DNA from: a virus
Strand: one strand, 5' to 3'
IMG/VR virus record: IMGVR_UViG_3300024502_000006
Coordinates: 1-34,224 of that record
Length of the DNA: 34,224 bases
The notes beneath the pieces are model-generated. The model was given only the letters and a program-made list of their open reading frames with translations, was not told where the DNA came from and did not search any database. Position 1 is the first letter of the stretch, and every line of letters begins with the position of its first letter. The position numbers were made by a program, and so were the translations under genes. Positions 22,287 to 34,224 of the stretch are shown here, piece after piece.

Positions 22287-24356
22287 ATGCAGGACATGAA
22301 CGAATCTGAAGGTCTAGAGCAACCATCAGAAAGTGACAAGGAACTTGTTGCTTTCATTACAGACCATTGTGATCGTTGGAGGCAGTATCGTGACTCTAAC
22401 TACATTGACAAATGGGAAGAGTACGAACGCATTTTCCGTGGGATTTGGGATTCTCAAGACAAGACTCGTGATTCAGAGCGCAGTCGATTGGTTACGCCAG
22501 CAACCCAGCAAGCTGTAGAAACTCGCCACGCTGAGATCATGGAAGCCATCTTTGGTCAAGGAGACTTCTTTGACATTGAAGATGATGTGCAGGACATGAA
22601 TGGCAATCCCATTGATGTTGGTGTGATCAAAGCTCAACTCATGGAAGACTTTGCTAAAGACAAAATTAGGAAGTCTATTGACCAGATTGAGTTGATGGCT
22701 GAAATCTATGGGACTGGCATTGGTGAGTTGGTTGTTAAACAAGAAAAAGAGTTCATCCCTGCCACTCAACCTATTCCTGGTCAGATTGGACAAGCCGCAA
22801 TTGGTGTTATTGAGAGAGACAGGGTAGCTGTCAAGATCAATCCTGTCAATCCAAAGAACTTCCTTTTTGATCCTAATGGCACTTCAATTGAAGACTGTAT
22901 GGGTGTTGCCATCGAAAAGTATGTCTCAATCCACAAGATTGTGCAGGGGATGGCGGCTGGCATCTATCGTAAAGCAGAGATTGGCACTGATGCTTTGGAT
23001 GATGCTCTTGAACCCACTCAAGAAGCAACCAATTTTCAAGATGACAAGGTTAAGGTGCTGACCTATTATGGTCTTGTACCTCGTGAATATCTGCAAAAGA
23101 TTGAAGAGGCAGAAGGGGTTGTTAATCTGTTTGGTGAGGGCAGTGAGAATGAAGACTATGAAGACATGGTTGAGGCCATTGTTGTCATTGCCAATGACTC
23201 TGTTCTGCTAAAAGCCGACGAAAATCCTTACATGATGAAGGATCGTCCTGTTCTTTTGTATCAGGATGACACTGTTCCTAACCGTTTGCTAGGTCGTGGC
23301 ACGGTTGAGAAGGCTTACAACATGCAAAAGGCTATCGATGCTCAGACTCGTAGCCATTTGGACTCTTTGGCATTGACTACAAGTCCAATGATTGCAATGG
23401 ATGCCACTCGTTTGCCTCGTGGAGCCAAATTTGAGGTTCGTCCTGGTAAAGCAATTTTGACAAATGGCACTCCATCAGAGATTCTTTACCCATTCAAGTT
23501 TGGTAATACTGATGGAAACAACCTCCAGACGGCAAAAGAGTTTGAGCGTCTGTTGTTGCAAGCCACTGGAACGCTGGATTCCAATGGAATGGTGAGTCAG
23601 GTAAGCCGAGATGCCAATAATGGCGGTATTTCGATGGCTGTTGCCTCCATCATCAAGAAATACAAGCGTACTTTGACCAATTTCCAAGAAGATTTCCTGA
23701 TTCCGTTCATCAAAAAGGCGGCTTTCAGGTATATGCAGTTCGATCCGAACCGCTATCCGTCTGTTGACATGAATTTTGTGCCAACTGCAACCCTTGGAAT
23801 CATTGCACGAGAGTACGAACAACAGCAATTCATTGCTTTGTTGCAGACTCTTGGCCCGAATACCCCTGTTTTGCCGTTGATTCTTAAAGGAATCTTACAA
23901 AATAGCAGTTTGACTAACCGTTTTGAGTTGATTGCGGCTCTTGACCAGATGTCTCAGCCTGATCCTACTCAACAGCAGTTGGCTTTGCAGAAAGTGCAGT
24001 TGGATTTGCAATTGGCACAGGCTCAGGTGGCTCAGGTGGCGACTCAGGCAGAACAGAATCGTGCTGAAGCACAAAAACTGCTGGTTGAGGCTCAGTTGAA
24101 GCCTCAAGAAGTTCAAGCTAGGGTTAGCCAAGCCTTGACGCAGAATTTGCCTAATCAAGATGACATGGCATCCAAGGAATTTGACCGCAGGGTTAAGGTT
24201 GCTGAGTTGATGCTCAAGGAAGCCGACATCAAAAACAAGAGTAAGATTGTCGAAATGCAGATGGCTGAAAAGAGCAACAAAGTCGCTGGTATGGAACAAG
24301 ATTTTCTTGACCAGTTGAGCAAGCAACTTGGCGGTAATGCACCAAAGGTTGAATAA
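22287..24356 (+). CDS. Portal protein
   Basis: The 689-aa product has portal features: an acidic N-terminus, then YIDKWEEYERIFRGIWDSQD and SRLVTPATQQAVETRHAEIM, where the wing region begins, a crown-type VPNRLLGRGTVEKAYNMQKA and the stem region around QTRSHLDSLALTTSPMIAMD. The C-terminal 130 residues are Gln/Ala-rich helices like the long barrel of P22-type portals. The dodecamer is the DNA gate between head and tail. The length is close to P22 portal and longer than T7 gp8. Its stop overlaps the next start (TAATG). Confidence 0.88.
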   Translation: MQDMNESEGLEQPSESDKELVAFITDHCDRWRQYRDSNYIDKWEEYERIFRGIWDSQDKTRDSERSRLVTPATQQAVETRHAEIMEAIFGQGDFFDIEDDVQDMNGNPIDVGVIKAQLMEDFAKDKIRKSIDQIELMAEIYGTGIGELVVKQEKEFIPATQPIPGQIGQAAIGVIERDRVAVKINPVNPKNFLFDPNGTSIEDCMGVAIEKYVSIHKIVQGMAAGIYRKAEIGTDALDDALEPTQEATNFQDDKVKVLTYYGLVPREYLQKIEEAEGVVNLFGEGSENEDYEDMVEAIVVIANDSVLLKADENPYMMKDRPVLLYQDDTVPNRLLGRGTVEKAYNMQKAIDAQTRSHLDSLALTTSPMIAMDATRLPRGAKFEVRPGKAILTNGTPSEILYPFKFGNTDGNNLQTAKEFERLLLQATGTLDSNGMVSQVSRDANNGGISMAVASIIKKYKRTLTNFQEDFLIPFIKKAAFRYMQFDPNRYPSVDMNFVPTATLGIIAREYEQQQFIALLQTLGPNTPVLPLILKGILQNSSLTNRFELIAALDQMSQPDPTQQQLALQKVQLDLQLAQAQVAQVATQAEQNRAEAQKLLVEAQLKPQEVQARVSQALTQNLPNQDDMASKEFDRRVKVAELMLKEADIKNKSKIVEMQMAEKSNKVAGMEQDFLDQLSKQLGGNAPKVE

Positions 24357-26353
24357 TGGACATTGAAAGCCTAGCAAAGCAGTTAATTCTGCAAAACATG
24401 ACACCAGAACAGCAGATGGCTGTTTTGGATGGCATTAAGGCTTCTGTTGCTCAAGCAAAAGAGGTGCAAAAACGCAAGATTGGCGAAAATGTTGACCTTG
24501 TTGTTCAAGCCCTCAAAAAGATTGAAGCCGACATTCGTGATCGATACGATGCAGTAGGCAATGCCATTGAAAAGCGTGTTGCGTCCATTCAAGATGGTCG
24601 TGATGGGGCTGATGGTCGTGATGGTCGTGATGGCAAAGACGGAAAGCCTGGGAAAGATGGAGCCACAGGCCGTCCTGGTCGAGATGGAAAAGACGGTAAA
24701 GATGGCCGAGATGGTATTGATGGCATCTCTGTAATTTCTGCAAACATTGACTTTGATGGTTCTTTGGTCATCAAGTTGTCGAATGGAAAAGAGATCAATG
24801 TTGGTGAAGTTGTGCCGATGGATTTGGCAGAACGCATCAAGATCATTGGCAATGGCGGTGGAACTTCTCAAACTGTCCTTGATACTTTGGATAGTTTGCA
24901 GTCGCAGATTAATAGTTTGATTCCTAGTCAGACTGGAAACTCTGGCAAATACCTAACTACCAATGGTTCTGTACTGTCTTGGGCATCTATTGCTGGTGGT
25001 GGATTGTCATATCAAGGGACATGGAATGCTTCAACGAATATCCCCACACTTACATCTAGCACTGGTACTAACGGTTATTACTATATCGTCAGCACTTCTG
25101 GTTCTACTAATCTTGATGGCATCACTGACTGGGTGGTTGGTGACTGGCTTCTCTTCAATGGCACAGTTTGGCAGAAGATTGACCAATCGAACTTAGTTAC
25201 TTCTGTTAATGGTCAAACTGGTGCTGTGAGTTTGACGACTAGCAACATTAGTGAGGGTTCAAACCTTTACTACACTGACGCTCGTGCTAGGTCTGCTCTT
25301 AGTGCTGGAACTGGAATCTCTTACAACTCATCGACTGGTGCAATCACAAACTCTGCTCCAGACCAAACTGTTGCATTGACCGCTGGTACTGGAATTTCCA
25401 CTAGTGGAACATATCCGAATTTCACAATTACTAATAGTGCGCCAGACCAAACTGTTGTCTTAACTGCTGGAACTGGGATTTCTACAAGTGGCACTTATCC
25501 AAACTTCACGATTACAAATAGTTCTCCAGATCAGATTGTTTCTTTGACTGGTGCTGGAACGGTATCAATTTCCGGTACTTACCCAAACTTCACAATCACT
25601 GGTGCTGACCAATATCAGGGAACAGTTACTTCTGTTGCCATGACTGTTCCAACTGGTTTATCGGTGTCTGGAACTCCGATTACTAGCACTGGGACTTTTG
25701 CAGTTACTTTTGCCACTGGTTATAGTATCCCAACGAATACATCTCAAACGAACTGGGATACTGCCTACACGGATAGATTGAAGTGGGATGGTGGATCAAC
25801 TGGTTTAGTTGCGGCAACTGGTAGAACTAGCCTTGGATTGGGAACGATTGCAACCCAGGCGGCTAGTAATGTATCAATTACTGGTGGTTCAATCACTGGA
25901 ATCACTGATTTGGCAATTGCTGATGGTGGTACTGGTGCTTCTACTGCAACTGCGGCATTGAATAATCTTTTGCCATCTCAAACTAGCAACTCAGGCAAAT
26001 ATTTAACTACTGATGGCACGAATTCAAGTTGGGCCTCAGTTAATGTGGCAAAAGCGTTTGTAAATTTTAATGGAACAGGAACTGTATCCATTAGGGCAAG
26101 TAGTAATGTATCTAGTATTACTGATAATGGCACTGGAGATTACACAATTAATTTTACCAGTGCATTATCTGATGCCAACTATACGGCAACATTAGGTGCT
26201 GGAGCTACTTCTGGAAATGGTACAAACTTTAATTATGGCGTTGCAGATTCTAGTACCGCTAGAACAACAACAGCACTTAGAGTTTGGTACTTCACAAGTA
26301 GTGGAGCAAATTTTGCTGACACAGCAAACTATGAAGTTGCAATTTTCCGTTAA
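24356..26353 (+). CDS. Collagen-like fibre protein between portal and capsid genes
   Basis: The 665-aa product has three parts: a helical N-terminus (1-80) that may attach it to the virion, a collagen-like run of 15 Gly-X-Y triplets (81-125), and a fibre-type repeat body. The body contains two copies of a SGKYLTT-DG/NG...WAS unit, the NLYYTDARAR motif known from tail fibres, and two to three repeats of about 28 residues (each with TAGTGIS...TYPNFTITN). The C-terminus is beta-rich and could bind a receptor. The portal-to-scaffold position is unusual for a tail fibre; a head or collar fibre is possible. Confidence 0.78.
   Translation: MDIESLAKQLILQNMTPEQQMAVLDGIKASVAQAKEVQKRKIGENVDLVVQALKKIEADIRDRYDAVGNAIEKRVASIQDGRDGADGRDGRDGKDGKPGKDGATGRPGRDGKDGKDGRDGIDGISVISANIDFDGSLVIKLSNGKEINVGEVVPMDLAERIKIIGNGGGTSQTVLDTLDSLQSQINSLIPSQTGNSGKYLTTNGSVLSWASIAGGGLSYQGTWNASTNIPTLTSSTGTNGYYYIVSTSGSTNLDGITDWVVGDWLLFNGTVWQKIDQSNLVTSVNGQTGAVSLTTSNISEGSNLYYTDARARSALSAGTGISYNSSTGAITNSAPDQTVALTAGTGISTSGTYPNFTITNSAPDQTVVLTAGTGISTSGTYPNFTITNSSPDQIVSLTGAGTVSISGTYPNFTITGADQYQGTVTSVAMTVPTGLSVSGTPITSTGTFAVTFATGYSIPTNTSQTNWDTAYTDRLKWDGGSTGLVAATGRTSLGLGTIATQAASNVSITGGSITGITDLAIADGGTGASTATAALNNLLPSQTSNSGKYLTTDGTNSSWASVNVAKAFVNFNGTGTVSIRASSNVSSITDNGTGDYTINFTSALSDANYTATLGAGATSGNGTNFNYGVADSSTARTTTALRVWYFTSSGANFADTANYEVAIFR
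24596..24730 (+). repeat. Collagen-like Gly-X-Y repeat (15 triplets)
   Basis: Codons 81-125 of the fibre gene encode uninterrupted triplets (GRD, GAD, GKD, GKP, GAT, GRP and others). Most are Gly-Arg/Lys-Asp, so the rod would be stabilised by salt bridges rather than hydroxyproline. It probably forms a trimeric triple helix. Confidence 0.85.
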
Positions 26354-29033: not shown

Positions 29034-29067
29034 AGTCCTTCCTCCTAACGGGGGAGGGACTTTTTTC
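29034..29067 (+). terminator. Strong terminator after the capsid gene
   Basis: AGTCCTTCCTCC-TAAC-GGGGGAGGGACT forms a 12-bp stem with G-U pairs, followed by TTTTTT. It lies 8 nt past the capsid stop. It should sharply lower transcription of downstream head and tail genes relative to capsid. Confidence 0.85.
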
Positions 29068-29087: not shown

Positions 29088-29414
29088 ATGGCAAGTGCAA
29101 GTTCCGTAACGGTGCGTCGAAGCAATGATCAGTTCCGTGGTTTGTTTAACGAAACATGGATTGTCAAGGCCACTCTTGACGCTGGTTCTTTGGTTGATGG
29201 CGCTGGTGAAACCGATGATGTGACTGTTCCTGGTGTTGCCTTGGGCGACATGGTGATTGGCGCATCTTTGGGTGTGGATTTGGTTGGTTTGACTGTTACT
29301 GGCTATGTCAGTGCGGCTAACACCGTCAAGTTCCGTATTCAGAACGAATCAACGGCAACTGTTGATTTGGCTTCTGCAACCCTGCGAATCGTGGTTGTTC
29401 GTCCAACCATCTAA
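29088..29414 (+). CDS. Virion structural protein, decoration-like
   Basis: The 108-aa product (MASASSVTVRRSNDQFRGLF) is beta-rich with a regular strand pattern (VTVPGVALGDMVIGASLGVD, then LTVTGYVSAANTVKFRIQNE), ending RIVVVRPTI. It lies right after the capsid gene and its terminator, the usual location of decoration or head-fibre proteins. AGGAG precedes the ATG. The function is inferred from location and beta content. Confidence 0.62.
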   Translation: MASASSVTVRRSNDQFRGLFNETWIVKATLDAGSLVDGAGETDDVTVPGVALGDMVIGASLGVDLVGLTVTGYVSAANTVKFRIQNESTATVDLASATLRIVVVRPTI

Positions 29415-29420
29415 AGGAGA

Positions 29421-29443
29421 GGGGGAGAAATCCCCCTTTTTTT
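29421..29443 (+). terminator. Terminator-like GNRA hairpin between ribosome site and start codon
   Basis: GGGGGA-GAAA-TCCCCC (29421-29436) with a GNRA tetraloop, followed by seven T (29437-29443), is a canonical intrinsic terminator. The ATG of the next gene begins at 29444, immediately after the T run, and the only ribosome site (AAGGAG, 29414-29419) lies before the hairpin. Confidence 0.78.
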
Positions 29444-29665
29444 ATGGCTACATTCAAATGTCTTGCAAGTGGGAATCTGGTAAGTTTTACCTTGGATCAC
29501 GACATTAAGACAATGGAAACGCATCCTGGGTATGTTCGTGTTGATGCTCCTAAGGAATCCATTGTGGCAAAAGAAGAGTCTTTGCCTGTTCCTAATCGGA
29601 TCGTCATGGGGCATATCCCAGTTGTTACAAAACGTCCAGGTCGTCCTCGTAGGGTAGCGTTATGA
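29444..29665 (+). CDS. Small hypothetical protein behind a hairpin
   Basis: The 73-aa product (MATFKCLASGNLVSFTLDHD) has a beta-rich first half (with HPGYVRVD) and a basic C-terminus containing KRPGRPRRV, an AT-hook-like GRP core. The ATG sits right after the hairpin and T run; folding the hairpin would reduce the spacing from the AGGAG site from 24 to 8 nt. Folds of this type are common in phage structural regions, but no function is known to me. It is ATGA-coupled downstream. Confidence 0.65.
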   Translation: MATFKCLASGNLVSFTLDHDIKTMETHPGYVRVDAPKESIVAKEESLPVPNRIVMGHIPVVTKRPGRPRRVAL

Positions 29666-33725: not shown

Positions 33726-34224
33726 ATGAGTAACTACACAAAGGCCACAAACTTTGCAACCAAGGATGCTTTGTCTTCTGGCGATCCTTTGAAGATTGTC
33801 AAAGGCACTGAACTCAATACTGAGTTTGATGCAATTGCAACTGCCATTGCAACAAAGGCTGACACTGTTTCTCCAACTTTTACTGGTACTCCATCGTTGC
33901 CTACTGGTACTACTGGTGTTACTCAATCTGTTTCTGATGACAGCACTAAGTTGGCTACAACTGCCTTTGTGCAAGATGTTGCAGACGCGATCAAACAGGC
34001 ATTATTTCCTGTTGGTAGTATTTATACAAACTCTTCTGTTTCCACCAATCCCGGTACTTTGCTTGGATTTGGTACTTGGACTGCATTTGGTGCTGGAAGA
34101 GTAATGGTTGGTATTGATTCTAGCAATTCATTATTTGACAGTGCAGAAGAAACTGGTGGTAGTGCAGATGCAATTGTTGTATCGCATACTCACACAGTTA
34201 ATGATTCTGGTCACACTCATAATA
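33726..34224 (+). CDS. Tail fibre/collar-type protein, N-terminal part (continues at base 1)
   Basis: ATG 33726 follows GGAAACAAG. The frame stays open to the window end and continues at base 1 to 321 after removing the 127-bp overlap, giving 230 aa. The N-terminal part has TKATNFATKDALSSGDPLKI (attachment-type) and a segment TKADTVSPTFTGTPSLPTGT, a fibre/collar motif; then PVGSIYTNSSVSTNPGTLLG, known from tail fibre C-terminal domains. It probably attaches to the nozzle and carries the His-rich distal end. Confidence 0.8.
   Translation, partial: MSNYTKATNFATKDALSSGDPLKIVKGTELNTEFDAIATAIATKADTVSPTFTGTPSLPTGTTGVTQSVSDDSTKLATTAFVQDVADAIKQALFPVGSIYTNSSVSTNPGTLLGFGTWTAFGAGRVMVGIDSSNSLFDSAEETGGSADAIVVSHTHTVNDSGHTHN
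34098..34224. repeat. Right copy of the 127-bp terminal direct repeat
   Basis: Identical to bases 1-127; see the left copy. Coding frame is continuous across it. This half should be removed when closing the circle. Confidence 0.95.

Follow-up and report, generated by a model that had tools for sequence, protein, structure and literature searches.

Between the genes P108 and P73 of the phage analysed here, a terminator-type hairpin separates a strong Shine-Dalgarno (SD) sequence from the P73 start codon. The question raised by this locus is how a ribosome begins translation at a start codon placed in this way, and whether a single element could both end transcripts and position ribosomes.

Window and gene neighbourhood

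The window (the whole stretch of DNA analysed, 34,224 nt) is a freshwater phage record of 34 kb with tailed-phage capsid, portal and terminase genes. An identical repeat of 127 bases is found at both of its ends (1-127 and 34098-34224), so the record is probably a complete genome of approximately 34.1 kb, circularly closed or permuted. A DNA similarity search of the window region against annotated phages returned no match. Directly after the portal gene, positions 24356-26353 encode a protein of 665 aa, in which a collagen-like stretch of GxD/GxP repeats lies close to the N-terminus.

All features of the window discussed below are on the plus strand. P108 (29088..29414; 108 aa, homologues in 196 loci) lies between the capsid gene and P73 (29444..29665; 73 aa), for which PHROGs and Pfam searches yielded no name. 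The capsid gene is followed by another terminator-type hairpin, T1 (29034..29061), and then by a separate SD (AGGAG) before P108. T1 therefore shows the ordinary layout, with the SD after the hairpin, within the same genome as the P108-P73 leader. P108 is flanked by two terminators, T1 and the P108-P73 hairpin.

Leader sequence and predicted fold

The P108-P73 junction reads TAAAGGAGAGGGGGAGAAATCCCCCTTTTTTT-ATG. The P108 stop codon TAA occupies 29412-29414, and its last base is also the first A of the SD AAGGAG (29414..29419), an overlap missed in the original prediction. After a 6-nt gap from the stop codon (29415..29420) comes the GC hairpin core GGGGGA-GAAA-TCCCCC (29421..29436), in which arms at 29421-29426 (GGGGGA) and 29431-29436 (TCCCCC) form six base pairs, five of them G-C, around a GAAA loop (29427-29430). 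A T7 run (29437..29443) then leads directly to the P73 ATG at 29444 and would act both as the U-tract of a terminator-like site and as the spacer to the start codon. AAGGAG is 24 nt from this ATG in the linear sequence and 8 nt from it once the 16-nt hairpin is subtracted; 29 nt lie between the P108 stop codon and the P73 AUG. The original prediction had described AAGGAG at these positions, a perfect 6-bp stem with a GAAA tetraloop, a T7 run and an effective spacing of about 8 nt if folded, and was correct in each respect.

Features of three kinds of element coincide here. The GC-rich stem with a U-tract immediately behind it (6 bp, T7) is that of an intrinsic terminator. The stop codon within a few nucleotides of the stem (6 nt) is that of a ribosome-repressed terminator. 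The SD that is too distant linearly (24 nt), the intervening hairpin that brings the spacing to 8 nt and the lack of a closer SD or better start, with only T7 between stem and ATG, are those of a split ribosome-binding site (RBS).

The position of the P73 start is well defined. Closer P73 homologues begin at the same ATG, with the sequence MATF(K/R)CL, the N-terminus MATF/YKCLxSGN is conserved, and homologues in approximately 70 loci start near the same residues. No SD-like sequence was seen between the hairpin and the ATG in the window leader.

In free RNA, the hairpin is predicted to extend to a 13-bp stem in which AAGGAGA pairs weakly with the U-run through A-U and G-U pairs (-18.3 kcal/mol, versus -11.2 kcal/mol for the GC core alone), a pairing that the original prediction also overlooked. 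Only 1 of 200 shuffled sequences folds as well as the leader (z -2.7). The lowest-energy structure has the SD approximately 90-99% paired and the AUG mostly paired. As AAGGAGA pairs with the U-run, the SD would be exposed only if the lower stem opens, and only the GC core could be a hairpin that is bridged. A rough energy model puts the cost of exposing the SD and start with the core kept at approximately 12 kcal/mol, or 8.4 kcal/mol if only the SD, spacer and AUG are freed, and that of melting the hairpin at approximately 24 kcal/mol, with SD pairing returning approximately 8.7 kcal/mol (the anti-SD duplex of the pre-hairpin stretch is -8.7 kcal/mol). Bridging would be the cheaper route in this model, at 8-12 versus approximately 24 kcal/mol.

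Leaders of related phages

Relatives were collected from 196 loci with P108, 194 of which have P73 behind it. The stop-to-start leaders comprise 117 distinct sequences. Of these, 116 are short, and every short leader contains a G-run/C-run hairpin with four or more G-C pairs; this conservation excludes a chance origin of the hairpin more strongly than does the shuffle test. The pair outside the G-run is A-T, G-T, C-G or T-A, and the loops vary (CTAGT, TTCG, CTAATAA, GAAA and others). Because the outer pair and loops differ, the structure is kept while its bases change, which is the comparison of relatives suggested in the original prediction; within the window clade, the stem is invariant. RNAalifold, applied to an imperfect alignment of 15 leaders in which the G-run core is invariant, gives 5 pairs, 2 of which have substitutions in both arms. 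In 110 of the 116 leaders, a gap of 4-7 nt separates the stop codon from the stem. On this comparison, the P108-P73 hairpin is an old, conserved terminator-type element. In four relatives (L063, L066, L069 and L072) the hairpin is kept and the T-run is lost (CCCCCGATCTCAC); there its role may be to stabilize mRNA 3' ends or to direct their processing, instead of termination.

The part of the leader after the hairpin is arranged differently. In relatives, the stretch from the C-run to the ATG is longer and usually carries an SD such as GGAG, GAGGGG or AAGGGG, with a median anti-SD duplex of -5.9 kcal/mol; in L057 and in the group L092, L146, L150, L245 and L247, the post-hairpin SD is weak. The window clade alone has just T7 between hairpin and ATG. 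Its leader is the shortest (32 nt, versus at least 40 nt elsewhere), and the pre-hairpin SD of the window is the strongest of the 116 leaders (-8.7 kcal/mol, with the next at -5.8 kcal/mol). Within this phage group, the SD-hairpin-ATG layout is confined to one small clade (the window, L001-L003 and L393/L394); the match of L088 to the layout pattern was judged to have arisen by chance. Since relatives use a separate SD downstream of the conserved hairpin, the layout is, as read from these leaders, a derived feature of that clade. Its probable origin is the loss of approximately 10-14 nt that had separated two T-runs, accompanied by the appearance of AAGGAG beside the stop codon. TTTT precedes the P73 ATG in many relatives, and the terminator T-run and this TTTT would flank the proposed loss.

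These leaders bear on two other explanations. In the first, which is the main rival, P73 is translationally coupled to P108. A ribosome that completes P108 at 29412-29414 would remain bound to the mRNA, get beyond the hairpin by opening it or sliding past, and reinitiate at AUG 29444. The hairpin would then be a terminator and nothing more, and AAGGAG would at most retain the post-termination ribosome. The stop-to-start distance of the window is short (29 nt) and the shortest among the relatives, and AAGGAG overlaps the P108 stop codon, as such a mechanism would favour. However, relatives with at least 37 nt between the two genes keep their own SD, which suggests that coupling alone is insufficient there, and in the window a GC core of -11.2 kcal/mol stands in the path of the ribosome. 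Coupling as the whole explanation appears rather improbable, and reinitiation could act together with bridging.

In the second, initiation needs no SD. Either protein S1 on the U-run or the bare AUG would recruit the ribosome, and AAGGAG would be a chance by-product of a purine-rich 5' arm. A U-run directly before the AUG is a plausible S1 site, several other genes of the window phage also have weak SDs, and L058 and L078 have a near AAGGAG without needing it. The group L092, L146, L150, L245 and L247, with the post-hairpin sequence TTTCTACAGAAAGAAAATC-ATG, also has almost no SD there (-0.9 kcal/mol) and none before the hairpin. Against this, the predicted structure has the U-run base-paired, and the pre-hairpin SD is the most extreme of the 116 exactly where the downstream SD is absent. 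Initiation of this kind at P73 is unlikely.

Constraint on the leader

The layout of the window is also found in L393 and L394, two contigs that are listed as L297 and L303 as well. The 32-nt leader is identical to that of the window at 31 of 32 positions, and the sole change, GAAA to GCAA in the loop, keeps the GNRA type. DNA identity to the window is 83% for P108 and 77% for P73 (dS 0.65-0.91). At these gene-level identities, the probability of such leader conservation is approximately 0.002-0.02, a conservative figure because synonymous divergence is far higher. Between the same phages, T1 (window 29034-29061, L393 about 1580-1645) has changed bases on both arms and kept its fold. As the T1 stem varies where the P108-P73 leader does not, this leader looks more constrained than a plain terminator. 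The joint conservation of SD and stem also counts against coupling alone.

The same data bear on the possibility that the junction has decayed, with a deletion having taken the SD, P73 receiving little translation in the window clade and the hairpin acting only as a terminator. The stretch lost is indeed the one that serves as the SD in relatives. Against it, P73 keeps a dN/dS of approximately 0.18 within the clade (dN 0.16 and dS 0.91 for window versus L393; P108 has dN 0.08 and dS 0.65), and the leader is 31/32 identical. This explanation is very improbable.

Comparison with known systems

The closest characterized parallels are genes 38 and 25 of phage T4, in which hairpins shorten the SD spacing from 22 to 5 nt and from 27 to 11 nt, respectively, and in which destabilising the hairpin lowers initiation (PMC3014915). 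The original prediction had invoked both genes. The gene 38 leader, read from AF158101, is TAAGGAGAGGGGCTTCGGCCCTTCTAAAT-ATG. Stop codon, AAGGAG, a purine-started GC hairpin and the ATG succeed one another there as they do in the window, with spacings of 22 to 5 nt versus 24 to 8 nt. Unlike the window hairpin, the gene 38 hairpin has a UUCG loop and no T-run, and so is not of the terminator type; its function has been tested in T4, while that of the window leader is read from sequence. Gene 25 also has a hairpin between SD and AUG, and there too the arrangement is confined to one clade of its phage group, but its SD is weaker and it has neither a G-run/C-run stem nor a T-run.

Two further systems correspond to other parts of the arrangement. 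In the split RBS of E. coli thrS (PMC3936740), the ribosome accommodates a hairpin without unfolding it, as proposed for the window; that hairpin is not a terminator, and it sets apart an upstream single-stranded region of ribosome contact, not a close SD-AUG pair. In E. coli, a terminator located 5 bp after a stop codon falls from approximately 90% to less than 10% activity when the upstream gene is translated (PMC4824070). The lambda tR2 constructs of that study resemble the window in having the stem a few nucleotides after the stop codon of a translated gene, but they are engineered and, unlike in the window, the downstream RBS is not part of the terminator. No published terminator-based split RBS was found in the literature searched, which covered few subscription papers.

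Proposed model for P73 expression

The favoured explanation, with a probability of roughly 0.6, is that the hairpin behind P108, while of terminator type, has also been taken into the ribosome-binding site of P73, forming a split RBS of the T4 gene 25/38 type on a terminator. Sequence comparison supports this idea well. The model is as follows. RNA polymerase would terminate at the hairpin when P108 is not closely translated. When a ribosome is at or near the P108 stop codon, 6 nt upstream, it would block the stem and allow read-through. In the read-through mRNA, the GC core would fold and the weak A-U/G-U lower stem would open. A 30S subunit would then pair with AAGGAG, bridge the hairpin at the effective spacing of 8 nt and initiate P73 at AUG 29444 in the manner of T4 genes 38 and 25. 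The novelty would lie in the use of a conserved terminator-type element as the bridged hairpin, and in the apparent recurrence of this solution in unrelated phages.

The original prediction of a hairpin bypass is retained in part. The bypass is compatible with every sequence test that was applied, and it is supported by the conserved ATG, the lack of another SD, the constrained leader, the layout of T4 gene 38 and the enrichment of ATG codons described below. It is tempered by the separate downstream SD of the relatives, which marks the layout as derived, and by pairing of the SD with the U-run, which restricts bridging to the GC core. The original prediction had also proposed a dual switch, in which transcripts either end at the start of the gene or read through and are translated with the hairpin folded. 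A terminator-type hairpin is indeed present at the gene start. As the stem begins 6 nt after the stop codon, termination would be expected mainly when P108 is untranslated close behind the polymerase; a ribosome translating P108 should suppress it, so any switch would depend on upstream translation. If the model is correct, one element of 30 nt controls both the supply of mRNA to a gene and the way in which that mRNA is translated.

Recurrence in other phages

A scan of IMG/VR for the order SD-hairpin-T-run-ATG returned 59 contigs in approximately 10 groups without obvious kinship. Because this pattern asked for an ATG, the scan was repeated without that requirement. Among the matches listed, which form 65 sequence clusters, 8 clusters have the ATG immediately after the T-run, 5 have it at a distance of 1 nt and 5 at 2 nt, versus approximately one cluster per position at 9-29 nt. 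In a matched count among the loci collected, an ATG lies 0-8 nt from the T-run in 24 of 35 SD-preceded and 6 of 36 SD-less terminators (p 1e-5, a value somewhat too small because some clusters, such as L318/L377 and L325/L349, are still related). With an ORF of at least 40 aa required, the counts are 18 and 2. The matched sets are non-redundant (35 with a strong SD just before the stem) and supersede a control with 3 SD-less terminators; the recurrence sets as a whole are small and partly redundant. That an ATG close to the T-run tends, in other phages, to accompany an upstream SD also argues against SD-less initiation at P73. A pattern scan of prokaryote genomes, one per species, gave 6 matches, mixed and mostly with short ORFs.

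The commonest group with the layout is the Pf phages of Pseudomonas aeruginosa (L252-L256 and others; L401 and L402). An assignment of this largest group to Neisseria phages was rejected when comparison showed them to be Pf phages. Their leader has the order stop-AGGAG-hairpin(GAAA)-T6-ATG and lies directly before coaA, after the major coat gene region. In PfAC02b and PfAC03 the coaA start is annotated exactly at the ATG after the T-run, and the encoded protein has a signal-peptide-like start. The Pf leader thus shares with the window a stop codon, an SD, a GC hairpin with a GAAA loop, a T-run and an ATG without spacer, but it belongs to unrelated filamentous phages with no sequence kinship to the window and is likewise known from sequence; no functional test of it was found in the literature searched. 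CoaA is the protein by which Pf phages adhere to pili (PMC9228429) and so must be made. The layout is present in a well-studied group in which it could be tested directly.

The filamentous phage M13 provides a useful contrast. The terminator between its genes VIII and III (V00604) is, as in the window, a terminator-type hairpin after a coat gene and directly before the next structural gene, but its SD (GGAG) follows the T-run in the ordinary layout of the window's relatives. On these sequences, M13 versus Pf is the same contrast as the window's relatives versus the window clade.

Simple start-site rules look for an SD near the start codon and take a terminator to mark where an operon stops, and genes arranged in this way could consequently be mis-started or scored as untranslated. 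In the Pf record 99-2 (OR621024), the annotated coaA start lies 168 nt downstream of the ATG that is used in PfAC02b and PfAC03.

A broader reading, offered tentatively, is that the terminator-embedded split RBS is a recurrent phage module with independent origins in the window clade, Pf phages and several other phage groups. In such a module, the hairpin would end untranslated transcripts, be held open by the upstream ribosome and place the next ribosome. If so, downstream output would follow upstream translation twice over.

Two further sets of loci were observed in the course of this comparison. In L275, L283, L292, L329 and L354, the SD, a variable G-run/C-run hairpin, the T-run and the ATG are kept and the ORF is at most 36 aa; it may encode a small peptide or none. 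L257/L266/L306 and L270/L293 are nearly alike in the end of the upstream gene, the SD and the hairpin, and different genes (177 and 297 aa) begin at the ATG, as if a terminator-RBS cassette remained attached to the upstream gene and the gene behind it were exchanged.
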